Source: a virus. Taken from it: DNA of 24,458 bases. A model generated the notes under the pieces. The model saw nothing but the letters and a program-made list of their open reading frames with translations, was not told the DNA's origin and ran no database searches. A program made the translations under genes and the position numbers. Below, in pieces: positions 13 to 10,852 of this stretch; the stretch's first letter is position 1; every line of letters starts with the position of its first letter. The stretch spans positions 1-24,458 of IMG/VR virus record IMGVR_UViG_3300037171_000075. The stretch is one strand, 5' to 3'.

Positions 13-105
13 CTAGGCCGACCCCGACCCCGACCGCGACCCCGACCGCGACCGCGACCGCGACCCCGACCACGACCACGACCACGCTTGAATTGCTGGG
101 TTCAT
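13..105 (-). CDS. Array mini-ORF 1: Ser-(Trp/Arg/Gly) dipeptide-repeat peptide, 30 aa
   Basis: The ORF starts at an ATG preceded by AGGAG with a 7-base spacer. It encodes the constant leader MNPAIQA, then 11 X-Ser dipeptides with X equal to Trp, Arg or Gly, and ends with Ala and TAG. Serine is always TCG and the variable codon is always NGG. The product would be cationic and Trp-rich with no acidic residue. It is the shortest of three tandem ORFs with identical leaders and ends. The start of a fourth lies across the left window edge, where the preceding ribosome-binding site is still visible. No family is recognised. The repeat is open in every frame, so the support for coding is the placement of SD, ATG and stop, not ORF length. 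Confidence 0.4.
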   Translation of the reverse strand: MNPAIQAWSWSWSGSRSRSRSGSRSGSGSA

Positions 106-115
106 CGCTGCTCTC

Positions 116-376
116 CTAGGCCGACCACGACCCCGACCGCGACCGCGACCGCGACCCCGACCGCGACCGCGACCCCGACCACGACCGCGACCCCGACCAC
201 GACCACGACCACGACCCCGACCGCGACCCCGACCACGACCACGACCCCGACCGCGACCCCGACCACGACCACGACCACGACCACGACCCCGACCACGACC
301 GCGACCACGACCACGACCGCGACCGCGACCCCGACCGCGACCGCGACCCCGACCACGCTTGAATTGCTGGGTTCAT
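116..376 (-). CDS. Array mini-ORF 2: Ser-(Trp/Arg/Gly) dipeptide-repeat protein, 86 aa
   Basis: This has the same design as the neighbouring array ORFs: leader MNPAIQA, 39 X-Ser dipeptides (15 Trp, 13 Arg, 11 Gly), a final Ala and TAG. Its stop codon is part of TAGGAG, so the termination site of this ORF carries the ribosome-binding site of the next unit (ORF 1), and its own SD comes from the stop of ORF 3. That arrangement would favour translational reinitiation along one leftward transcript. The predicted net charge is about +13 with no acidic residues. Function is unknown. Alternating Trp/Arg content could mean membrane or nucleic-acid binding, but that is speculation. A purely DNA-level repeat is the main alternative. 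Confidence 0.42.
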   Translation of the reverse strand: MNPAIQAWSGSRSRSGSRSRSWSWSRSWSGSWSWSWSWSGSRSGSWSWSGSRSGSWSWSWSGSRSWSGSRSRSGSRSRSRSGSWSA

Positions 377-386
377 CGCTGCTCTC

Positions 387-659
387 CTAGGCCGACCACG
401 ACCGCGACCACGACCACGACCGCGACCGCGACCGCGACCGCGACCACGACCGCGACCGCGACCCCGACCGCGACCACGACCACGACCACGACCACGACCC
501 CGACCGCGACCCCGACCGCGACCCCGACCGCGACCGCGACCCCGACCACGACCACGACCACGACCACGACCCCGACCACGACCGCGACCACGACCGCGAC
601 CCCGACCCCGACCACGACCACGACCACGACCCCGACCACGCTTGAATTGCTGGGTTCAT
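387..659 (-). CDS. Array mini-ORF 3: Ser-(Trp/Arg/Gly) dipeptide-repeat protein, 90 aa
   Basis: This is the most upstream array ORF on the leftward strand, 62 bases after the stop of the DUF6948-like gene at 722-988, so one transcript could carry both. It has an AGGAG ribosome-binding site, ATG, leader MNPAIQA, 41 X-Ser dipeptides (18 Trp, 14 Arg, 9 Gly), Ala and TAG. Dipeptides 9 to 18 have the same Trp/Arg/Gly order as dipeptides 9 to 18 of ORF 2, while the flanking order differs. The start is chosen on the SD. A longer upstream reading frame exists but runs antisense-shifted through the DUF6948-like gene and is not credible. Function is unknown. Confidence 0.42.
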   Translation of the reverse strand: MNPAIQAWSGSWSWSWSGSGSRSWSRSWSGSWSWSWSWSGSRSRSGSRSGSRSGSWSWSWSWSRSGSRSRSWSRSRSRSRSWSWSRSWSA

Positions 660-681
660 CGCTGCTCTCCTAGGCCGACCA

Positions 682-708
682 CGCCAGCAGCCAAACAAGC
701 CGCTGGCG
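682..708 (-). terminator. Hairpin between DUF6948-like gene and the array
   Basis: A perfect-to-one-wobble 10-bp stem (682-691 with 699-708) closes a 7-base loop, 14 bases after the stop of the leftward gene at 722. No U-tract follows on the minus strand. It could be a 3' end or processing hairpin or a pause structure, and it is weak evidence for intrinsic termination. If it does not terminate, the array mini-ORFs are cotranscribed with the upstream gene. Confidence 0.45.
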
Positions 709-721
709 CGGTCAAAAGCCC

Positions 722-988
722 CTACTTCGTCTTCGTAGGAAGCTGGGAAATCTGGACGGCGTCGATCAGGGAACCGCGGCCGACGATGACCTGGCCGGTG
801 GGGAACATCTCGACCTCGTTGAAAGAACTCGTCTCCAGCGCCTTCCCAAAGCGCCCGGTGTCGGCAATCCAGGAAGCGTCTTCGAGCACAAGCTCGTGTT
901 CGGTGACGGCGACGAGCTTGCCGGCGTCGATCATCGTCGCCGTGCGGATGAGGTAATCGGCTCCAATTTTCCAGTGGGCGTCGCTCAT
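722..988 (-). CDS. DUF6948-like phage protein
   Basis: This is an 88-aa protein of the small family found in phages and mobile elements that begins MSDxHWKxGxxYxIRTxTM. It contains the conserved segments VTEHELVLEDASWIADTGRF and GQVIVGRGSLIDA, which I associate with DUF6948. The function of the family is unknown. The start at 988 is chosen over an upstream in-frame ATG because AAAGGAG lies 7 bases before it. The gene is transcribed leftward and is divergent from the regulator at 1118. The intergenic region holds a candidate promoter for each direction. Downstream lie a hairpin and the hexamer array. Its position next to the regulator suggests it is under early or lysogenic control, which is inference. 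Confidence 0.8.
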   Translation of the reverse strand: MSDAHWKIGADYLIRTATMIDAGKLVAVTEHELVLEDASWIADTGRFGKALETSSFNEVEMFPTGQVIVGRGSLIDAVQISQLPTKTK

Positions 989-1033
989 TTTTGATCTCCT
1001 TTGCCCGTTGAGGGCGGTCCAACTCACGGCGCC

Positions 1034-1061
1034 ATCCTACACGCCTCGCCAACCCTGTCAA
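1034..1061 (-). promoter_or_regulatory. Candidate sigma70 promoter for the leftward DUF6948-like gene
   Basis: On the minus strand a consensus TTGACA (1056-1061) is followed after 16 bases by TAGGAT (1034-1039). The start codon at 988 is about 40 bases further on, giving a normal leader with a Shine-Dalgarno sequence. Confidence 0.5.
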
Positions 1062-1068
1062 GCCAATC

Positions 1069-1076
1069 TTGCGCAA
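1069..1076. promoter_or_regulatory. Palindrome TTGCGCAA, candidate operator
   Basis: This 8-bp perfect palindrome lies between the -35 boxes of the two divergent promoters. It is a plausible binding site for the adjacent YdaS/Cro-like regulator, by position only. Confidence 0.3.
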
Positions 1077-1083
1077 TCCATCA

Positions 1084-1111
1084 TTGACATATTCGGATTT
1101 TCCGCTATCGT
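1084..1111 (+). promoter_or_regulatory. Candidate promoter for the regulator gene, predicting a leaderless mRNA
   Basis: A consensus TTGACA (1084-1089) is followed after 16 bases by TATCGT (1106-1111). Transcription would begin about 7 bases later, at the ATG of the regulator (1118). The absence of any Shine-Dalgarno sequence before that ATG agrees with a leaderless transcript, as known for lambda cI from PRM. Confidence 0.5.
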
Positions 1112-1117
1112 CGCCGC

Positions 1118-1336
1118 ATGGACGGAGAACAGACATCGCGCGACGCGGCCCTGCAACGGGCAATCGATGCCGTCGGGGGCGCCGCAGAACTCGCCCGCCG
1201 CATCGGCGTCAAGCGCCAGGCGGTATCGGCTTGGCGACGTTGCCCGGCCGATCGGGCGCGATCGGTCGAGACAGTGACCGGCGTTCCCATGCACGAACTC
1301 CGGCCGGATATGTGGAGGAAAGGCGAAACCCAATGA
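1118..1336 (+). CDS. YdaS/Cro-like helix-turn-helix regulator
   Basis: This 72-aa protein contains a compact helix-turn-helix at about residues 18-45 (segment GAAELARRIGVKRQAVSAWRR). It is followed by the segment VETVTGVPMHELRPDMW, typical of YdaS-type antitoxin/Cro proteins from lambdoid prophages. It probably represses one or both of the divergent promoters just upstream. No ribosome-binding site precedes the ATG, and the predicted transcription start coincides with it. It is coupled to the next gene by an ATGA overlap. No YdaT-like toxin partner is visible, so a phage repressor or Cro role is more likely than a toxin-antitoxin role. Confidence 0.85.
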   Translation: MDGEQTSRDAALQRAIDAVGGAAELARRIGVKRQAVSAWRRCPADRARSVETVTGVPMHELRPDMWRKGETQ

Positions 1337-1794
1337 ATAAACCCGAGAAATCGCTACCGGAGGGCCTGCGCGCCGAGGATATGCCGACGGCGGAATTTGA
1401 CACGGACACGCTGAGCGGCGACGTCCGCGACGTGCTGCTCGGCCATCTTCGCGACATGAAAGTGCCGTGGGCGATGCTGTCCGAAGACGAACAGCGCGAC
1501 AAGATTTACGCCGTCTCAATGTGCGGGAAAGACGTGGTTCGCCGCGTCGTCCAGGCGGTCGTCAAAGCCGGCTTCCCGTCGATTGTCGTCAGCGTTGGCG
1601 CTATCAAGATCGACAAGGGCGTCGAAATCAAGCTCGCCGCATCCTCGACCGTCGAGACGATCAACCGGCTCGCCGAACACGGCAAGGGCGCCGCCGTCCT
1701 CGTTCTGGCCGAAGCCGCCGACTTCTACGGCGAGCGGGCGCCGGCGACGCCCGACAAGGATCAGCCGGACCTGCCGATCGCCGACGCCGAGTGA
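1333..1794 (+). CDS. Conserved phage protein of unknown function
   Basis: This 153-aa protein begins at an ATG overlapping the stop of the regulator by four bases. The segment GHLRDMKVPWAMLSEDEQRDKI and a C-terminal half ending in a VLVLAEAADFYGER-like helix are typical of a phage early-region family that usually sits near regulators and recombination genes. I know no function for it. The C-terminal 20 residues are acidic and Pro-rich. The gene overlaps the next one through GTGA, so translation of the three genes from 1118 is probably coupled. Confidence 0.8.
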   Translation: MNKPEKSLPEGLRAEDMPTAEFDTDTLSGDVRDVLLGHLRDMKVPWAMLSEDEQRDKIYAVSMCGKDVVRRVVQAVVKAGFPSIVVSVGAIKIDKGVEIKLAASSTVETINRLAEHGKGAAVLVLAEAADFYGERAPATPDKDQPDLPIADAE

Positions 1795-2291
1795 GCCTCA
1801 TTTTCACGATACCCGGCGCGCCGGTTCCATTCGCGCGCGCCGGTTCCTTCGGGACCCGCCGGTTCACGCCGACCAAGCAGCGCGACTACATGCTCCAGGT
1901 GCGGGCGATGGCGTTCGAGGCCATGCGCGGCGCGGCGCTGCTCGAAGGGCCGCTGACGATGGACGTCCGCGCGGTCTATCCAGTCCCCGAGACGTGGTCC
2001 AAAAAGCGCAAGGCCGCGGCCCATTGGAAGGACTCGCGGCCGGACGCCGACAACATCGCCAAGGCGATCATGGACTGCATCGGCAAGAACGAATCGCTCG
2101 CCGGCTACGACAAGCTGCCGGCGGCGCTGGTCTTCGGCGACGACGCGCAGGTCGCGCATCTGAACGTCGTCAAAATCTACGGTCCGGTCGCGTTTGTCCG
2201 CGTGTCGGTCGAAGCGTTGGAGAGCATCGAATGTCAGGATTCAGCAGGCCGACCGGCCGCGGCGGGTGGATTGTTAGGCGCGACGACCTGA
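1791..2291 (+). CDS. rusA: RusA-family Holliday junction resolvase
   Basis: This 166-aa protein is predicted to cut Holliday junctions during phage recombination or replication. The opening IFTIPGAPVPFARA and the central motif RPDADNIAKAIMDCI (residues 83-97) match the RusA signature, whose Asp residues bind the metal. A further acidic pair follows in VFGDDAQV (about residues 114-120). Length is in the normal RusA range. The GTG start overlaps the previous stop by four bases. The C-terminal 20 residues overlap the next gene in another frame and look unlike RusA, so the ancestral stop may have been lost. The context of early regulator plus methyltransferase fits a phage recombination module. 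Confidence 0.9.
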   Translation: MSLIFTIPGAPVPFARAGSFGTRRFTPTKQRDYMLQVRAMAFEAMRGAALLEGPLTMDVRAVYPVPETWSKKRKAAAHWKDSRPDADNIAKAIMDCIGKNESLAGYDKLPAALVFGDDAQVAHLNVVKIYGPVAFVRVSVEALESIECQDSAGRPAAAGGLLGATT

Positions 2292-2491
2292 TCGAGCGCG
2301 AGCGCGACACGCGCGCCCTGGCCGCGGAGGTCCGCGAGCGCGCCACGCCGATCGAGCGATTCGTCCGAAAGTCGCTCGTCAGCCCGCATAACGACGTGAC
2401 GTTGCCGGCGCTCAAATTTATGGGGCAGGAGGGGAAGCATGGCGCAGAACACGTCGACAGCCGTGATGCAACGGCGAGTCGCAGGGACTGA
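2231..2491 (+). CDS. Small basic protein of unknown function
   Basis: This 86-aa ORF is preceded by GGAGAG six bases before its ATG. It overlaps the RusA 3' end by 61 bases and the methyltransferase-like gene by 53. It is rich in Arg, Glu and Asp (segment RRDDLIERERDTRALAAEVR), suggesting a charged helix. No domain is recognised. The good ribosome-binding site and coherent helical middle support it, and the C-terminal tail in the overlap looks random. Confidence 0.55.
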   Translation: MSGFSRPTGRGGWIVRRDDLIERERDTRALAAEVRERATPIERFVRKSLVSPHNDVTLPALKFMGQEGKHGAEHVDSRDATASRRD

Positions 2492-3092
2492 TCATCTCGA
2501 TTTCTATCCGACGCCACCCTGGGCGACGCGCGCGCTGTGCGAATGGATCGTGACGTCCAGACGTCATCCTGATCTGAGCGACCTGACGGCGTGGGACCCT
2601 GCGTGCGGCGAGCACGACATGGTGAGGCCGTTGCGCGAGTTCTTTGGGTCAGTTGCGGCCACCGATGTGGCGCCGCACAAGGGCGGCCATGAGGTCGTCG
2701 ACTTCCTTTGGCCAACCGAACAGCGCTCCGACTGGATCATCACCAATCCGCCCTTCAAACTCGCCGAGCAGTTTGCTGTGACCGCGCTTGCACGCGCCGA
2801 GCGCGGCGTCGCGCTGTTGGTGCGCACCGCCTTTCTGGAGGGCGTGGGTCGCTTGTCGAGGCTGTTCGCCCCCGATCCACCGACTGACATCTTCCAGTTC
2901 AGCGAGCGCGTCGTGATGCACCACGGCCACCTATCGAAGGAAGGCTCGACGGCCACGGCATATTGCTGGGTCGTTTGGCGCAAGCCGCTCAAAGGCTGTG
3001 TCGGCACGCATTTTCATTGGATCGCCCCTTGCCGCAAGCGGCTCGAGCGCGACAGCGACTATCCCATTGACGACGCCCCGCCGCAGGCGTAG
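2439..3092 (+). CDS. Putative SAM-dependent DNA methyltransferase
   Basis: This 217-aa protein shows two hallmarks of N6-adenine-type methyltransferases: a SAM-binding motif I at DPACGE (residues 53-58), with an acidic Asp at about 76, and a catalytic motif IV NPPF (residues 103-106). The N-terminal segment DHLDFYPTPPWATRALCEW is common in small phage methyltransferases. AGGAGGGG before the ATG decides the start. No target-recognition domain is evident, so specificity is unknown. It could protect phage DNA from host restriction. The C-terminal part is less clearly related to known families. Confidence 0.8.
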   Translation: MAQNTSTAVMQRRVAGTDHLDFYPTPPWATRALCEWIVTSRRHPDLSDLTAWDPACGEHDMVRPLREFFGSVAATDVAPHKGGHEVVDFLWPTEQRSDWIITNPPFKLAEQFAVTALARAERGVALLVRTAFLEGVGRLSRLFAPDPPTDIFQFSERVVMHHGHLSKEGSTATAYCWVVWRKPLKGCVGTHFHWIAPCRKRLERDSDYPIDDAPPQA

Positions 3093-3137
3093 CTTGTGCG
3101 CCGTAGGTAGTTCCCGAGGGGTACTTAGTCGCGTCTT

Positions 3138-3146
3138 GGGGGGGGG
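3138..3146. repeat. Run of nine G residues
   Basis: A G9 homopolymer precedes the structured element at 3146-3200 in the gap between the methyltransferase-like gene and the small gene at 3222. Such runs are prone to slippage and to sequencing error. Confidence 0.9.
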
Positions 3147-3200
3147 TGCTTAAAAAGAAGGCCCGGGAGTCGCGTAAACGACTTCGACCGGGCCAAGCAC
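3146..3200. terminator. Long structured hairpin; intrinsic terminator in the leftward direction
   Basis: The element folds as an outer 6-bp stem (3146-3151 with 3195-3200), an 8-base A-rich bulge, a 7-bp GC stem (3160-3166 with 3188-3194), a small internal loop and a 5-bp stem (3168-3172 with 3179-3183) with loop CGTAAA. On the minus strand the GC stem is followed at once by TTCTTTTT, which makes a strong intrinsic terminator for transcripts arriving from the right, that is antisense to the replication gene. On the plus strand it would be a structured 5' leader for the gene at 3222. Confidence 0.6.
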
Positions 3201-3203
3201 AAA

Positions 3204-3220
3204 CGCGAGGGTCCTTCGCG
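3204..3220 (+). promoter_or_regulatory. Leader hairpin sequestering the ribosome-binding site of the next gene
   Basis: CGCGA (3204-3208) pairs with TCGCG (3216-3220), directly before the ATG at 3222. The only Shine-Dalgarno-like sequence, GAGGG (3207-3211), lies within this hairpin, so translation start may depend on opening it. Confidence 0.4.
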
Positions 3221-3221
3221 A

Positions 3222-3419
3222 ATGAGCCAGTCTGATCTAGCGCAAAAATCCACACCAATCAAGCCCCTTTCGGTCGCCGTCCAAATATGGGCGGTCGAAC
3301 TCGTGGCCGCCATGAACTTCCGCCATGCCTTCCCAGGCATGCGCGAATCGGAGGTCGAGCGCATTAAGCGCGCCCTCAAAGACGCCGCCGGCACACTCTC
3401 GCAACTCACGGACGGGTGA
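3222..3419 (+). CDS. Small protein of unknown function
   Basis: This 65-aa protein is mostly helical, with segment AVELVAAMNFRHAFPGM and a basic C-terminal helix. No family is recognised. It is the first gene after a structured leader and overlaps the start of the replication protein gene (TGATG junction), so the two are probably coupled. A role in replication or its regulation is suggested only by position. Confidence 0.6.
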   Translation: MSQSDLAQKSTPIKPLSVAVQIWAVELVAAMNFRHAFPGMRESEVERIKRALKDAAGTLSQLTDG

Positions 3420-4177
3420 TGGCTGTCAGCGCCGACGGATTACGCCGGCTTGCGGCGCTTGAACTGACAGCCGAACAGCTACGCGAAGTTCTCGCAGTGG
3501 TTGCAGAGTCGATAGAGACTACAGCCGAGACGCGCGGCGTGAACGCCCTTCGGCAGGCTCGATACCGGGATCGCAAGCGTAACGAAATCGTAACGCCGAG
3601 CGTAACGGAGCGTAACGAACCCGTAACAAACGTTACGCCTCCTCGCGCGCCTATACGCGAGCGCGTTCTTAATGCGGTAGAAAGTAGTAGTATTAAAGAG
3701 CTACCTACGGTAGCAAGAAAGTCCGACCAGCCGATCGATCTTTTCGGTAGCCCTTCCGTTCGCGACAAGCGCCAGGCCAAGGTCGAGGAAGAAACCCGGA
3801 TCGTTCGTTTCGCTTGCGAAACCTGGAACGAGATGATCTCCGAGTTCCCGCGAATGGTGCGGATCACCGTGGTTCCAGACCGCGGAACACGGGAGCGTCT
3901 GATCCTCGCGGCGGCAAAGCTTTTTGCTGGCGACCTAGATTTCCCAACGGCGGAAGCCGGCTTCCGAGCGTTCTTTGCGAAGATTCGCGCTAGTCCGTTC
4001 CTGCGCGGCGATGCAGCGCCAGGTCCTGGGCGGGACCGCGCGTTCAAGCCGACGATTGATCGCTTGCTCGCCCCGAAAATGCTTACGCCAATCATGGAGG
4101 ACACGTATGGCCCCGAAGTTTCGCCCAAGCCGAACAACCGCGGAAACGGCGGCTACGCGCACGCCTACGGGCGCTGA
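3419..4177 (+). CDS. Putative phage replication initiation protein
   Basis: This 252-aa protein has a C-terminal region (about residues 185-235) with the pattern SPFLRGD, then TIDRLLAPKML and I-EDTYG. It resembles the C-terminal domain of phage replication initiators and helicase loaders (pattern FLxG, FDWLLxP, ILEGNY). The middle segment (residues 50-75), rich in Val-Thr and Arg-Asn, is encoded by repeated CGTAACG 7-mers. That is the arrangement of lambda O, where the origin iterons lie inside the initiator gene. The ATG at 3419 overlaps the preceding stop; a GTG at 3416 is possible. Assignment rests on these features together and is not certain. Confidence 0.65.
   Translation: MAVSADGLRRLAALELTAEQLREVLAVVAESIETTAETRGVNALRQARYRDRKRNEIVTPSVTERNEPVTNVTPPRAPIRERVLNAVESSSIKELPTVARKSDQPIDLFGSPSVRDKRQAKVEEETRIVRFACETWNEMISEFPRMVRITVVPDRGTRERLILAAAKLFAGDLDFPTAEAGFRAFFAKIRASPFLRGDAAPGPGRDRAFKPTIDRLLAPKMLTPIMEDTYGPEVSPKPNNRGNGGYAHAYGR
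3578..3720. other. Candidate replication origin: iterons plus AT-richer segment
   Basis: Five direct copies of CGTAACG (3578, 3589, 3601, 3611 and 3622, the last ending in A) are spaced 10 to 12 bases apart, about one per helical turn. They are followed by one inverted copy CGTTACG at 3631-3637. Downstream, 3664-3720 is visibly AT-richer than its surroundings and contains the hairpin GCTACC-TAC-GGTAGC (3700-3714). The set lies inside the putative initiator gene, as in lambdoid phages. Helical phasing argues for protein binding and not coding chance. Confidence 0.6.
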
Positions 4178-4508
4178 GATCAACAACCAGAACTGGGTCG
4201 CCCTTGCCAGCGCCTCGATCCGCGCGCAGGGCGGCCAGGGCTTCGTGATCCGCAACGACACGCCGGAGCTCGCCGGGGCCGCCACGCCGGCGGAATGGCA
4301 CGCTTGGATGCTCTATTTCGAGGATCACGGTATTGCGACGAAGTATCTGCGCTTTCACGGCGTCGGAACCGTGCCGACACGATGGCCGGAGGAATTCGAC
4401 CTGACGCGCGAGCCGAGCGACAAGACGTGGCGCTTTCCGCCTCGCGCGTTCGATCCAGCCATGCGACGGCGGGTCTTGGGGCTTGGCTTGGCGCTGGGCG
4501 AGCTATGA
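4107..4508 (+). CDS. Phage protein of unknown function
   Basis: This 133-aa protein starts at an ATG with GGAGG six bases upstream, inside the end of the replication gene (71-base overlap). The segment WHAWMLYFEDHGIATKYL and several Trp residues are characteristic of a small phage family often found next to replication genes. No catalytic motif is visible. It overlaps the next gene by ATGA. A function linked to replication is inferred from position only. Confidence 0.7.
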   Translation: MAPKFRPSRTTAETAATRTPTGAEINNQNWVALASASIRAQGGQGFVIRNDTPELAGAATPAEWHAWMLYFEDHGIATKYLRFHGVGTVPTRWPEEFDLTREPSDKTWRFPPRAFDPAMRRRVLGLGLALGEL

Positions 4509-5086
4509 CTGACGGCAAGGTTCTCGCGATTTGCAGCGACTACCTCGGCTTCATCGCGGCGTTGCGCGATCGGGCCGCCGACCTCGGGCTCGCGATGGGA
4601 TCTGAGAACGCGGCGGAGATCAGCGGGCTCGCCGGCGCCACGCTCGCCCGCCTGATGACGCCAAAGACGAGCGGCAAGATTCTGAGTATCGAAAGCTTCG
4701 GCGTCGTACTCGGCTTGCTTGGCGTCAAGATGTTGGTGGTCGAGGACCCGGCGCAGACTACCCGTATGAAAACGCGCATCGTCAAGCGCAATGCCGGCTA
4801 TGTCCGAGACAGCGTCTTGCATCTCGCAATTCCGAAACAAACCTTCAAGGAAATGGGGCAAAAAGGCGGAAAAGCCAAAAATGCGGCCATGACGCGCAAA
4901 CAACGCAGCAAGCTTGCCCATTTGGCCGCGATGGCGCGCCATCATCCAAGCGAACAGGCGCGTCGCAGCTATCGGGGAAGGGTCGCGGCGCTGGCGCGCT
5001 GGGCGAAGCACAGGAGAGAACGCGATGGAATTGAAAGTGTCGAAGCACGCGCGCCAGCGCCTGACGGAGCGCCTCGGCAATCCTGA
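4505..5086 (+). CDS. Putative HTH-type regulator with basic C-terminal tail
   Basis: In this 193-aa protein the N-terminal half (about residues 20-80) resembles an XRE-like helix-turn-helix domain: ENAAEISGLAGATLARLM, then ILSIESFGVVLGLLGVKMLV, the usual single-turn pattern followed by the domain-closing helix. The C-terminal half is very basic, with KEMGQKGGKAKNAAMTRKQR and two Ala/Arg-rich helices, and may bind nucleic acid. It is coupled to the previous gene by ATGA and overlaps the next by 62 bases. DNA binding is likely and the target is unknown. Confidence 0.6.
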   Translation: MTDGKVLAICSDYLGFIAALRDRAADLGLAMGSENAAEISGLAGATLARLMTPKTSGKILSIESFGVVLGLLGVKMLVVEDPAQTTRMKTRIVKRNAGYVRDSVLHLAIPKQTFKEMGQKGGKAKNAAMTRKQRSKLAHLAAMARHHPSEQARRSYRGRVAALARWAKHRRERDGIESVEARAPAPDGAPRQS

Positions 5087-7552: not shown

Positions 7553-7749
7553 AGCCGATTCGCATTGTTTCGGCTGCGCAGCGTGCGATGCTGGAGCGGG
7601 TTGTTGCTGACCCTGCGGAGGCGCGGCGTCGCGGGATGCGGCAATCTGACGCTGCGGCGGCATTGGCGGCGGACGGTGGCGGTCGGTTGCCTGAGCGGGT
7701 TGGGCCTGTCAGGCCTGGTCGGCACGGTCCTGCTGGGCGTCGCCCTTGA
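7549..7749 (+). CDS. Small protein of unknown function, 66 aa
   Basis: The GTG start overlaps the previous stop by four bases and has GGGAGG five bases upstream. The N-terminal half (IVSAAQRAMLERVVADPAEA) is a convincing helix, while the C-terminal half is Gly/Arg/Pro-rich. A different plus frame over about 7650-7790 encodes a hydrophobic helix (LSGLVGTVLLGVALERR), so the last part may be frameshifted relative to an ancestor. The 3' end overlaps the convergent methyltransferase gene by 41 bases. Confidence 0.5.
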   Translation: MKPIRIVSAAQRAMLERVVADPAEARRRGMRQSDAAAALAADGGGRLPERVGPVRPGRHGPAGRRP

Positions 7750-9568
7750 ACGTCGCGCCGATATAGCGGGCGAGCGGGAGGGGTATGCGGGCGATCATGG
7801 CGCTGGCGGCTTTGCGGGCGGGGGATTTGGAACCGAAGCTTGCGGACGTTCCCCCGGCCCCTCCCTTGCGGGCTTCCGCAAACCAGTCGCCACCCTGTTT
7901 TGTTCCTTCGACGCTCGCTGTCTGGAACGATCGCCCGCTTCCGTCGAAGCGGAAATTCGGCACCTTCGCCGCCCTGCGCGTGATTGGCATCAGCGCAGGA
8001 ACATCACCCCACAGATAGAACGACCCGAAATTGAACCGCGCTCTCCCTACCCACGACTGGGCGCCTCTAACATTCTCGACGATCATCGGGATATGCCGAC
8101 CAGCCGCTAAGCTGGCCTCGGCTTGGATGCGGAAACAGGCGTTGAACAACCGATTGAGCCGAACGAGGCTTTCGCCCGTCGTATCGGCTCGGATCGCTGC
8201 GGCCTTCGCCTTAGCGAGTTTCCAAGGCATCGCCATGTAGCTGTATTCTTGGCAATTATGAACGACCACGCCATCGGCCACATAGCTGTTGTCTTCCTCG
8301 ACCTCCAAGTTCCAAACTTTCGCCGATGACTGACCCTCAACCACGCTGCGGACAATGCCCCATTGCATCCCATATTCTCTCTGGACGAGCCGGTTGCGCT
8401 CGACCCCAGGTGTCCATCGCGTATCCCAGCTATCCCGCTGGTTGACGATGCGACCTTCAATTTCATAAGTCGCCGGTCGAAATTGCCGATGGACGGCGGA
8501 AACGCACCCAAGAGAGGCGGCAAGAAAACGAGTGCCGATGGCAAGCTGTTTGCTGACCGACGTGGTTTTGATGATCGGTGTGCCCCCGTTAATATCCGGG
8601 TTGCCATCCGCTGAAACATATCCATCTAGGAGCGCTTCGCGCCTGGTTCGATCCATCCCAAACGCCCAAGCCGGCCATGATTTTTGCGCCGCGCCTCGTC
8701 CAAAATGCGTCGTCAACCACTCCGCAAGAGCGTTGCTCGCCGCCGTGAACCGCGCTGTCGTTCTCTCTTGAGACCGCCTCCAATGGAGTTCGCCCCGCGT
8801 GGCGCGCGCACCGACCCGTAGCGCAACTGACGCGAGGTGATGTTCAAGAGCGTCCGCTTCATCGTTGCCGCAGCAAATAATAACTTCGTCGCCGCTTCTG
8901 GTTTCCTCACGCAGCCGCACCCATCCATCGCCAACCCAACGCCCGACCATCCACCAAAACGCCGAAGTATCAGGCAATTCGTTTGGAAGAATTGGGACCG
9001 GCAGCGTCTCAAACTCAACCGGGCTCGCCCAATGATTGCCGGCGCATTGCGCGAGATGTATCCATTCCGGGTCGCCTAATTTCTTCGGGTGATATATTGG
9101 CCGATTCTCCGCTGCCCCCCAAACTTGGCGGGAGCCAACATCGCGCCGCGCATAGACCGGATGCTCAGGCGTGCCCTCAAGAAAAGCGCCGTACCCGGAC
9201 GCGATGACGGTTTTTGAGAAAGTTCCGCCCGTCCTAAGCACTCGCCGCCAGCGATTGCGATGCGTCAAAACACGGTCGCCGACAGCGACTTTCGGGATAG
9301 GAATGAGCCCCCGATCGGTGAGAATTAGCGTGTCCGCCACGAAACAGGGCGGCGAGGCGACGATCAGGGCCGCGTCCTTGAATTGCGAGCCGTGCAGCGT
9401 CAGAACGTCCTGGATGACGAGTTGCGTATTCGGCAACGGCGCGAATCCGAACTGCCCGCGCATGTCCTCCAAGTCAAAGCCGACCGTATCAAACCCTTCC
9501 GCGATCAAGCCTTCGCTCCAGCCGAACATCCCACAAAACAAATCAATTGCAATAGGGCGGGTTTTCAT
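7709..9568 (-). CDS. C5-cytosine DNA methyltransferase interrupted by an intein (619-aa precursor)
   Basis: The extein parts (residues 1-74 and 439-619, 255 aa after splicing) form a small phage cytosine-5 methyltransferase. They carry motif I IDLFCGMFGW, motif IV SPPC with the catalytic Cys at 439, motif VI IVENVRG, and a C-terminal motif X-like RIPLPLARYIG. The intein (residues 75-438) separates SPP from the catalytic Cys. The host protein cannot be active unless the intein splices. The first 14 codons are AT-rich and recoded relative to the rest, and an old start stub lies 0.6 kb upstream at 10152-10187. GGGGGGA upstream is a possible ribosome-binding site. The gene probably modifies phage DNA against host restriction. 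Confidence 0.93.
   Translation of the reverse strand: MKTRPIAIDLFCGMFGWSEGLIAEGFDTVGFDLEDMRGQFGFAPLPNTQLVIQDVLTLHGSQFKDAALIVASPPCFVADTLILTDRGLIPIPKVAVGDRVLTHRNRWRRVLRTGGTFSKTVIASGYGAFLEGTPEHPVYARRDVGSRQVWGAAENRPIYHPKKLGDPEWIHLAQCAGNHWASPVEFETLPVPILPNELPDTSAFWWMVGRWVGDGWVRLREETRSGDEVIICCGNDEADALEHHLASVALRVGARATRGELHWRRSQERTTARFTAASNALAEWLTTHFGRGAAQKSWPAWAFGMDRTRREALLDGYVSADGNPDINGGTPIIKTTSVSKQLAIGTRFLAASLGCVSAVHRQFRPATYEIEGRIVNQRDSWDTRWTPGVERNRLVQREYGMQWGIVRSVVEGQSSAKVWNLEVEEDNSYVADGVVVHNCQEYSYMAMPWKLAKAKAAAIRADTTGESLVRLNRLFNACFRIQAEASLAAGRHIPMIVENVRGAQSWVGRARFNFGSFYLWGDVPALMPITRRAAKVPNFRFDGSGRSFQTASVEGTKQGGDWFAEARKGGAGGTSASFGSKSPARKAASAMIARIPLPLARYIGATFKGDAQQDRADQA
8255..9346 (-). mobile_element. 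LAGLIDADG homing-endonuclease intein in methyltransferase motif IV
   Basis: This 364-aa class 1 intein has all the expected blocks: Cys1 in CFVADTLILTDRG (block A), TPEH at intein residues 59-62 (block B), VGRWVGDGW (about 134-142) and LLDGYVSADG (239-248) as the two dodecapeptide motifs with both acidic residues, and VWNLEVEEDNSYVADGVVVH ending His363-Asn364 before Cys+1. All splicing residues are present, and both endonuclease acidic residues are kept, so splicing and homing look intact. The +1 residue is the methyltransferase catalytic Cys itself. Base composition is somewhat lower in GC than the flanking genes. Confidence 0.95.
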
Positions 9569-9575
9569 GTAGATA
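9547..9575 (+). promoter_or_regulatory. Candidate promoter for the HNH gene, embedded in the recoded methyltransferase start
   Basis: TTGCAA (9547-9552), a 17-base spacer and TAGATA (9570-9575) predict transcription starting near 9582, two bases before the HNH ATG, hence a leaderless mRNA; there is no ribosome-binding site. The -35 lies within codons of the methyltransferase on the other strand. Confidence 0.5.
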
Positions 9576-9583
9576 ATCCCCCC

Positions 9584-10153
9584 ATGTATGATCTATTATG
9601 CAAATCCTGCGGCGGGAAATTCCAAGCCATACGGCCTGACAAGAAATGGTGCAGCTCGACGTGCGCGAGCCGCGCCGGCAGGCTCCGTAGGTGCGAGCAA
9701 ACGGATGTGACCAAAGCAGGGGCTGATTGTTTGGAATGCGGCAAGCATTTCAGCATCGTGCCGCCCTCAACAAATCGCCGATATTGCTCACAGGGATGCT
9801 CGACGGAAGGCGCGAGAAAGTCACGTGCCGCATTCCACAAGAGAAATACAGAATACAATAAGCAGATGTGGCAACGCCACAAACACAAAGACCCAAGGTC
9901 GACCAAGGGCAAGGGCGTGATCGAATGGCTTCGTCGCGCCTTTCCAGACCTTCCAGTTGGCTGCGAAAGCTGCGGCGAATCTCGCGTGCTCGACGTTGCG
10001 CACAAGCCAGAGTTTGCCAGAAATGGCGCATGGAGGAACCGAAATACGACGCAACGTCATATGTTTTGGGTTCTCTGCCCCACATGCCACGCGCTTCTTG
10101 ATCGCGGTGTGATGACAGCACAGGCGCTAGGGCTCCGAGACAGCCTGCTTTAA
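9584..10153 (+). CDS. HNH homing endonuclease with zinc ribbons
   Basis: This 189-aa protein has paired-Cys ribbons at C6/C9 with C23/C27 and C49/C52 with C68/C72. A C-terminal HNH-like core follows: CESCGE (127-132), DVAH (137-140), Asn/Arg-rich segment, and CPTCHALLDRG (165-175). Tandem zinc ribbons before an HNH domain are common in free-standing phage homing endonucleases. It lies opposite the methyltransferase, with starts only 15 bases apart, and its stop abuts the stub of the original methyltransferase start. This points to insertion at the conserved motif I DNA. No ribosome-binding site is present; see the promoter at 9547. Confidence 0.85.
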   Translation: MYDLLCKSCGGKFQAIRPDKKWCSSTCASRAGRLRRCEQTDVTKAGADCLECGKHFSIVPPSTNRRYCSQGCSTEGARKSRAAFHKRNTEYNKQMWQRHKHKDPRSTKGKGVIEWLRRAFPDLPVGCESCGESRVLDVAHKPEFARNGAWRNRNTTQRHMFWVLCPTCHALLDRGVMTAQALGLRDSLL

Positions 10154-10187
10154 GGCCGCAGAACAGATCGATCGCCAGAGGTTTCAT
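10152..10187 (-). pseudogene. 5' stub of the displaced cytosine methyltransferase gene
   Basis: Twelve codons, [12 protein letters not shown], match the start and motif I of a C5 methyltransferase. The ATG overlaps the stop of the recombinase gene (ATGA), the normal operon junction. After CGL the frame leaves homology exactly at the HNH gene boundary and continues as antisense of HNH. The intact methyltransferase begins again at 9568. Confidence 0.85.
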
Positions 10188-10852
10188 GTCCGGCTCATTG
10201 CGGCGATCCGGTCGCGGACGCGGATCACGGTGCGGGCGGACCACGGCGCGCCGGTCGGCGTCGCTATCCCGATCTGGTTGAGCTTGTTGGCGGCGGTGTG
10301 GGATGAGAGGTCTTTGAGGCGGGCGAAGACGGGGGCGAGTTCTTTGGCGCGGTCGTTGGCCTCTTGTTTACGGCGCTCGCCGACTTCGGTGGTCTGGCCG
10401 AGCTTGCGGCCTGATTTGGTGCCGATGATCTTGGCGCGGGCGAGGGCGGCTTTTGTGCGCTGCGAGATGAGGGCGCGCTCCTTTTCGGCGACCGCGGCGT
10501 AGATGTGGAGCATGAAGGGATCGACGTTGGGGCCGAGTTCGGCGACGATGAATGGGATTTTGTGCAGCATCAGGCCGGAGATGAAGTGGACGTCGCGGGA
10601 GAGGCGGTCGAGCTTGGCGACGACGACCGGGCCGGGGATGCGGGCGGCGAGGTCGATGGCGGCCTTGAGTTCAGGGCGGAGTTCGAGCGCGTCGGCGCCC
10701 TTGCCGGTCTCGACCTCGACGAACTCCTGGACGATGCGCATGTCGTTGTTGGCGGCGAACTGCTCGACGGCGGCGCGCTGGGCGTCCATGCCGAGCCCCG
10801 AGAAGCCCTGCTTTTGCGTTGAGACGCGGAGGTAGGAGACGATGGGGGTCAT
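10184..10852 (-). CDS. Serine recombinase (resolvase/invertase family)
   Basis: This 222-aa protein begins [19 protein letters not shown] with the nucleophile Ser11, contains the family motif [11 protein letters not shown], and has a long E-helix followed by a short C-terminal DNA-binding region ([20 protein letters not shown]). It cuts and rejoins DNA through a 5'-phosphoserine link and could resolve dimers, invert a segment or promote integration. It is shorter than large serine integrases. The ATG overlaps the stop of the 19-aa peptide (TAATG), and no separate ribosome-binding site is present, so it depends on coupling. Confidence 0.9.

Follow-up and report, generated by a model that had tools for sequence, protein, structure and literature searches.

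A probable intron-less homing element that supplies a replacement start to phage C5 DNA methyltransferase genes

In the DNA analysed here (the window; 24,458 nt, one complete IMG/VR virus record), an HNH-family endonuclease gene interrupts the start of a C5 DNA methyltransferase (MTase) gene at motif I, and the MTase begins anew beyond it with a differently coded motif. The arrangement is very probably the work of a free-standing (intron-less) homing element which carries a donor-derived MTase start and leaves the old start of its target behind as a stub. The evidence is an empty-site allele, an exact insertion point, a foreign tract and recurrence at one site, together with an open restart frame, family-wide recoding of motif I and purifying selection on the HNH gene. 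From these sequence comparisons we infer cutting by the HNH protein, homing, and resistance of the recoded site.

Results

Organization of the locus in the window

The features of the locus are listed below in order of position.

7709..9568, minus strand: C5-type DNA methyltransferase, restarted, with an open frame and an intein inside
8252..9346, minus strand: intein with LAGLIDADG domain at motif IV (PP/C), residues 75-439
9419..9568, minus strand: foreign (donor) MTase 5' end, a co-conversion-like tract, from comparison with contig L003
9530..9550, minus strand: restart motif I (AIDLFCG)
9569..9583, minus strand: short leader between the divergent starts, with a G-rich GGGGGG at 9578-9583
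9584..10153, plus strand: HNH-family endonuclease gene, 189 aa, antisense to the MTase, with a profile match and conserved Cys/His
10153..10187, minus strand: stub, the original MTase start of the recipient (ATG...LFCGL), cut at the insertion point
10184..10852, minus strand: serine recombinase (Resolvase, PF00239), the upstream gene, to which the native MTase is coupled by ATGA

The recombinase stop and the stub ATG overlap in the ATGA at 10184-10187. From 10187 to 10153 the stub reads ATG AAA CCT CTG GCG ATC GAT CTG TTC TGC GGC CT; after 35 nt its frame meets the end of the plus-strand HNH gene, whose stop codon TAA (10151-10153) overlaps the stub end by one base. The preliminary description of this DNA had reported the coupling to the recombinase and the ending of the stub at the HNH stop, and both are confirmed. 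The 15-nt leader lies between the HNH start codon and the MTase restart at 9568 (minus strand, MKTRPIAIDLFCGM); its GGGGGG may be the ribosome site of the restarted MTase. AIDLFCG is encoded by GCG ATC GAT CTG TTC TGC GGC in the stub and by GCA ATT GAT TTG TTT TGT GGG in the restart. Six of the seven codons are changed, all synonymously, as had been claimed. The MTase profile PF00145 was matched by a full-length relative. The intein at motif IV (PPC), which is also present in the HNH-less allele L003, agrees with the earlier statement that two unrelated homing-type elements occupy motifs I and IV of one gene.

A second HNH-like ORF, P0004 (10967-11401, plus strand, 144 aa), lies between the recombinase and the next gene. 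It had no Pfam match, and the DNA holding it is absent or replaced in the related contigs L005 and L006. It may represent a further free-standing HNH insertion into this phage.

Comparison with an uninvaded allele

L003 is a contig of the window's phage species, without the HNH gene and with a single intact MTase carrying the same intein. One flank, of 3,736 nt and reaching window position 10153, shows 99.92% identity between the two sequences; the other begins at position 9418, and its 3,562 nt match completely (100%). Between these flanks, 734 nt in the window replace 100 nt in L003. The 734 nt consist of the HNH gene and about 150 nt of foreign MTase 5' end, and are the sole real difference from L003. 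The insertion point lies one base inside the HNH stop codon. Comparison with uninvaded relatives had been proposed as a way to find this point, and L003, L005 and L006 give it exactly.

Up to 10153 the stub matches the MTase start of L003 at every base, and is therefore the recipient's own original start. The MTase 5' end of about 150 nt is foreign, since identity with L003 resumes only at 9418. The preliminary description had placed native codons directly after the restart motif; this was off by about 110 nt, because the foreign DNA runs to about 9419. The closest relatives of the foreign tract are LFGW-clade MTases (64-71% aa identity), which belong to another clade. BLASTN of the region against GenBank phages gave no match. 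Window and L003 represent a present/absent polymorphism at a fixed site with flanking conversion, and the restarted MTase is a chimera of a donor end (9419-9568) and a recipient body, native below that tract. The same HNH junctions were found in two other contigs, L083 (100%, 5,077 nt) and L082 (99.94%, 6,601 nt), so that the invaded allele is not an assembly artefact.

The layout could also have arisen from two tandem MTases, the upstream copy having decayed to a stub after an HNH gene landed there. One contig (L050) does hold two MTase copies, though not in tandem. Two original genes were looked for in L003 and in L005 and L006, which are also uninvaded (recombinase identity 94-97%). All three have the same recombinase-MTase junction and a single, coupled MTase. 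This, the exact match of the stub to the L003 start and the lack of a first MTase body anywhere render a tandem origin highly improbable.

Equally, there is very little to recommend a self-splicing intron, or an intein, by which the HNH would be excised from the transcript or the protein. Group I introns often house HNH genes. A phage methylase with a hidden HNH has also been described (PMC11855218). Against this, the Rfam search of the window returned no intron or other RNA family, the HNH gene is antisense to the MTase in six cases, and the gene downstream possesses a separate start codon. Since the restart repeats the motif already in the stub, a splice between the boundaries would moreover leave two copies of it. 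A group I intron was rejected for the window, where there is no Rfam match and the ORF is antisense. The HNH insert was also rejected as an intein: it is antisense, has its own start and stop, and is separate from the intein at motif IV. The nuclease gene is an antisense ORF of its own without a surrounding intron or intein, and the element remains intron-less, as first described.

Recurrence at motif I of other methyltransferases

The same plan (motif-I stub, inserted gene, restarted MTase) was found in 12 further phages, and the search for other HNH genes flanked by a stub and a recoded start, suggested with the preliminary description, was thus successful. Several MTase scans yielded about 240 loci of the window's MTase family. 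In the 647 kb scanned with a strict motif-I pattern, every match upstream of an MTase was a stub with one ORF; no stub-like motif stood upstream of the other loci and no chance match occurred. Since all strict-pattern matches are stubs with one inserted ORF, the stub-restart layout is not due to chance. A looser pattern added L028/L179, along with three other apparently chance matches. A scan of genome contigs gave 14 MTase relatives, none with a stub. The loci are as follows.

Window, L039/L084, L045, L145, L028/L179 and L182: antisense HNH in the window's MTase family
L059: window's MTase family; insert a 220-aa PD-(D/E)XK protein (PF11645, E=6e-13; PDB 2ost, E=0.0015)
L061, 3507-3854: window's MTase family; insert a 105-aa ORF without family
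L183: sense HNH in a Dcm-like C5 MTase; stub MNHLDLFTG, restart MLNKLNHLGLFAG
L272: sense HNH in a Dcm-like C5 MTase; stub MNHLDLFSGI
L273: sense HNH in a third type of C5 MTase
Forrest and Blueeyedbeauty: sense HNH in the third type of C5 MTase; stub LELFCG, restart MRVLDLFCGAGG

The break is always at LF[CTS]G or no more than about three codons past it. The inserts belong mostly to one loose HNH family; once the insert is a PD-(D/E)XK nuclease, with a match to PDB 2ost, which we take to be the homing enzyme I-Ssp6803I, and once it is an ORF without a recognisable nuclease. Forrest and Blueeyedbeauty are isolated Streptomyces phages, and Jada, Annadreamy and Beuffert are their close uninvaded relatives. 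The stubs of Forrest and Blueeyedbeauty are short and decayed, which counts against the homing reading. Streptomyces phage Faust (L291) counts against it too: there a LAGLIDADG ORF (1067-1504) lies directly upstream of the MTase with no visible stub.

These loci bear on a further alternative, passive carriage of the HNH gene. Homologous or illegitimate recombination with a phage bearing an HNH gene and an MTase would have produced the layout without cleavage, homing or selected immunity, and the codon changes would be plain donor divergence. The L061 locus, with the same layout and a non-nuclease ORF in the same position, fits passive carriage and weighs against homing. The stub-side boundary, on the other hand, lies at or next to the same codon across independent loci, in three kinds of C5 MTase and with several kinds of insert, as is not expected from passive carriage.

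Several loci have peculiarities of their own. The ORF of L061 takes its final TGA from the recoded ATTGAT in the restart. A likeness of this ORF to DUF2442, noticed by eye, was not upheld by a Pfam match and its family is left unassigned. In L272 (2421-2460), an extra TGACT (5 nt) in the restart motif, located at the insertion point, breaks the MTase frame; it looks like an end-joining scar of a cut there. The stub of L028/L179 has since lost about 12 nt. In L182 the HNH gene is interrupted (near 89-4456) by about 4 kb of inserted DNA. The insert has inverted ends (GGTAGTGGCTCA / TGAGCCACTACC) and seems to have duplicated 8 nt of target (TGTTCACC); the MTase restart lies 4.4 kb from its own stub. 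A transposon was rejected as an explanation of the stub-restart layout, inverted ends and target duplication being found only in L182, for the insert inside its HNH. The L182 stub reads LFCGL, and the GACTTATTTCAAG after it is similar to the shortened L179 junction GATTTATTTCAATCC, possibly a nested older stub left by repeated homing. No stub is visible at the MTase of L013, whose motif I (5004-5042) is almost the same as the recoded L182 restart (GCTATAGATTTGTATGCCGGTTTAGGCGG); this allele may be resistant, or its HNH gene may have been lost.

Recoding of the restart motif

Motif-I DNA of the restarts was scored against 166 distinct native motif-I sequences. Restarts scored low (Mann-Whitney p=2.5e-4 for six HNH cases and 1.7e-4 for eight) while stubs looked native (p=0.12 against natives; stubs above restarts, p=0.001), and synonymous divergence was in excess at motif I over the downstream sequence (p=0.0096, eight cases); the p values are approximate, because the compared sequences are related. 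The excess is strongest in L061, L045, L039 and L028. In L059 there is no such excess and little recoding, which counts against the homing reading. Across the family, the recoding claimed for the restart is upheld, the motif being both atypical and synonymously diverged.

In the window by itself the excess is not significant, as the whole tract is foreign; 77% of natives show an excess as large. Recoding beyond donor divergence is not supported for the window considered singly, where the two are not separable, and the claim of recoding rests on the family and on the comparison of Forrest with Jada. These two phages differ synonymously in 6 of 11 motif codons and in 1 of 56 at codons 16-75 (p=3e-5), within a stretch around the motif of 99.25% identity over 2,138 nt. 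For Blueeyedbeauty and Beuffert, identity is 73% over the initial 45 nt and rises to 96% over the 45 that follow. Between Blueeyedbeauty and Faust, 0 of 12 motif codons but 16 of 52 downstream codons differ; the start is shared and the body is not.

For passive carriage, the foreign tract of the window runs past motif I to 9419 and the synonymous excess there is not significant. Divergence in the two Streptomyces phage pairs is concentrated in the first 45 nt and the restart motifs are atypical against the natives. With the shared boundary described above, these observations make passive carriage decidedly unlikely.

Recoding might also serve expression or stability and not immunity. AT-rich codons would ease the start of translation or give promoter elements to the antisense HNH gene; alternatively, a smaller direct repeat with the stub would keep the HNH from being deleted. 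GC3 of the restarts in the window, L182 and L061 is 0.22 compared with a native mean of 0.68, and an unrecoded stub and restart would form a near-perfect direct repeat. Native genes, though, start at the same motif and keep GC-rich codons, and the restarts of L145, L028 and L059, none of them AT-rich, are altered at different positions, F to Y and C to A or T among the changes. A search of the window insert for promoters and terminators gave a result near chance level (one promoter found, 0.4 expected). We consider this alternative unlikely as the cause of the recoding; its repeat-avoidance form is compatible with the homing explanation and not exclusive of it.

The HNH endonuclease

The window HNH protein, P0002, matched the phrog_1271 HNH profile (E=9e-9), and the HNH core (treble clef) with its metal-binding Cys/His was found with phrog_1271 E values of 3e-7 to 3e-10. 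C127, C130, H140, C165, C168 and H169 are invariant in the HNH family, and Cys/His of the zinc-ribbon-like parts and of the HNH core are conserved across it. No Pfam HNH model scored above cut-off with the window HNH, and a PDB sequence search with it gave no match. Its AlphaFold model is of modest confidence (pLDDT 73), and the best Foldseek matches, all weak (best E 0.12), included HNH nucleases of the Cap5, PacI, Gme HNH and McrA types. The weak detection by profiles and the modest confidence of the model count against the homing reading. A search for relatives of the L272 HNH in plasmids found none.

Between Forrest and Blueeyedbeauty the HNH genes have dN 0.04 and dS 0.88, and between L145 and L028 pN is 0.12 with pS saturated; by these measures the HNH gene is under purifying selection. 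The L145 and L028 HNHs are 80% identical and their MTases 72%, whereas in all other pairs HNHs are 48-69% and MTases 69-79% identical. The closer relation of these HNHs than of their MTases, unlike in other pairs, suggests that the HNH moved between MTase lineages.

Discussion

Mechanism proposed for the element

As a unit, the element would comprise the HNH endonuclease gene, a short leader and a replacement 5' end for its target. The HNH protein would cut the uninvaded MTase at or beside the motif I DNA, immediately after LFCG(L), and the invaded allele would be copied to repair the break. The recipient would gain the HNH gene and the recoded MTase start of the donor, its own old start staying as the stub; the length of donor MTase acquired would vary, about 150 nt in the window and about 45 nt in Forrest compared with Jada. 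The MTase would be translated from the new start, so that in this proposal the target is not lost, and the victim MTase probably keeps working. With its recoded motif I altered at the cut site, the new allele would escape further cutting, and recombination with the stub to delete the HNH gene would be hindered. The recoded start probably resists cleavage by its own HNH, and the element would be self-immune.

On balance, we lean towards a wider view as well: that unrelated endonuclease families have independently targeted motif I of C5 MTases, as widespread phage 'home and rescue' elements which spread by a recoded, cut-resistant 5' start. Constraint from the protein sequence on motif I DNA would make this motif a general homing site.

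Comparison with known systems

In SegF-type homing, a nuclease gene without intron or intein likewise lies beside its target and spreads with flanking co-conversion. Such genes are situated between genes, whereas the phage MTase element lies inside its target and re-supplies the start of that target. Intronless homing by free-standing phage endonucleases, for example SegF of T4, is cited in PMC12724721.

WHO elements of Torulaspora and Lachancea yeasts replace the 3' end of FBA1, and in their homing model the donor end resists the nuclease of the element through allelic differences (Coughlan et al. 2020, PMC7282813, PMC7282806). In both systems a free-standing endonuclease stands beside the target and the old end of the recipient is left beyond the endonuclease gene; such a fragment beyond the nuclease gene is present in the window and at 12 further loci. 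They differ in that WHO elements act at the 3' end of FBA1 in yeast nuclei with HO-related proteins and tested cutting, whereas the phage element uses HNH or other nucleases at C5 MTase 5' ends, with inferred cutting. Membership of the WHO family was rejected, as there is no HO/VDE-related protein at an FBA1 3' end; the phage element works like WHO.

The mORFs of fungal mitochondria (hybrids of atp6, atp9, cox2 and nad3, including Allomyces atp6) similarly comprise an endonuclease ORF inserted with a foreign gene end, the native end being left behind, according to PMC3630166. They concern C-terminal ends, mitochondria, and LAGLIDADG or GIY-YIG enzymes, and in the passages on them the resistance of the new end is not the point made.

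Arsenault et al. (2025, PMC11855218) described the ShiLan domain, a hidden HNH, in DNA methylases of actinobacteriophages. Here too an HNH sits in a phage methylase, and the 11 in-frame residues that open the insert are similar to the 11 after the insertion site, the resemblance being stronger in uninvaded than in invaded genes (PMC11855218). The methylase frame is open through the insert, which is read as a retained loop, and no restarted gene was proposed (PMC11855218). In the light of a related in-frame repeat, the ShiLan HNH may deserve re-reading.

Implications

A search of the phage literature, chiefly of openly readable papers, found no description of the stub-insert-restart arrangement. 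The only close precedents found are the 3'-end replacements of yeast nuclei and fungal mitochondria, and the phage element may be seen, by analogy, as the 5'-end counterpart of WHO elements and mORFs. The interpretation given in the preliminary description is supported in its core, and the earlier single case extends to what appears to be a recurrent class, in which a free-standing homing gene would replace the 5' end of its target. The usual picture places intron-less homing genes between genes, and others inside spliced introns or inteins. The stub-restart element would represent a different way of living inside a conserved gene, namely to bring a new start. With Forrest and Blueeyedbeauty and the uninvaded Jada, Annadreamy and Beuffert, the homing reading is testable now. 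If the recoded start is indeed not cut by its own nuclease, phages would have evolved a drive with a recoded rescue copy, such as gene-drive designers build. The element could also explain part of the diversity of phage methyltransferase starts.
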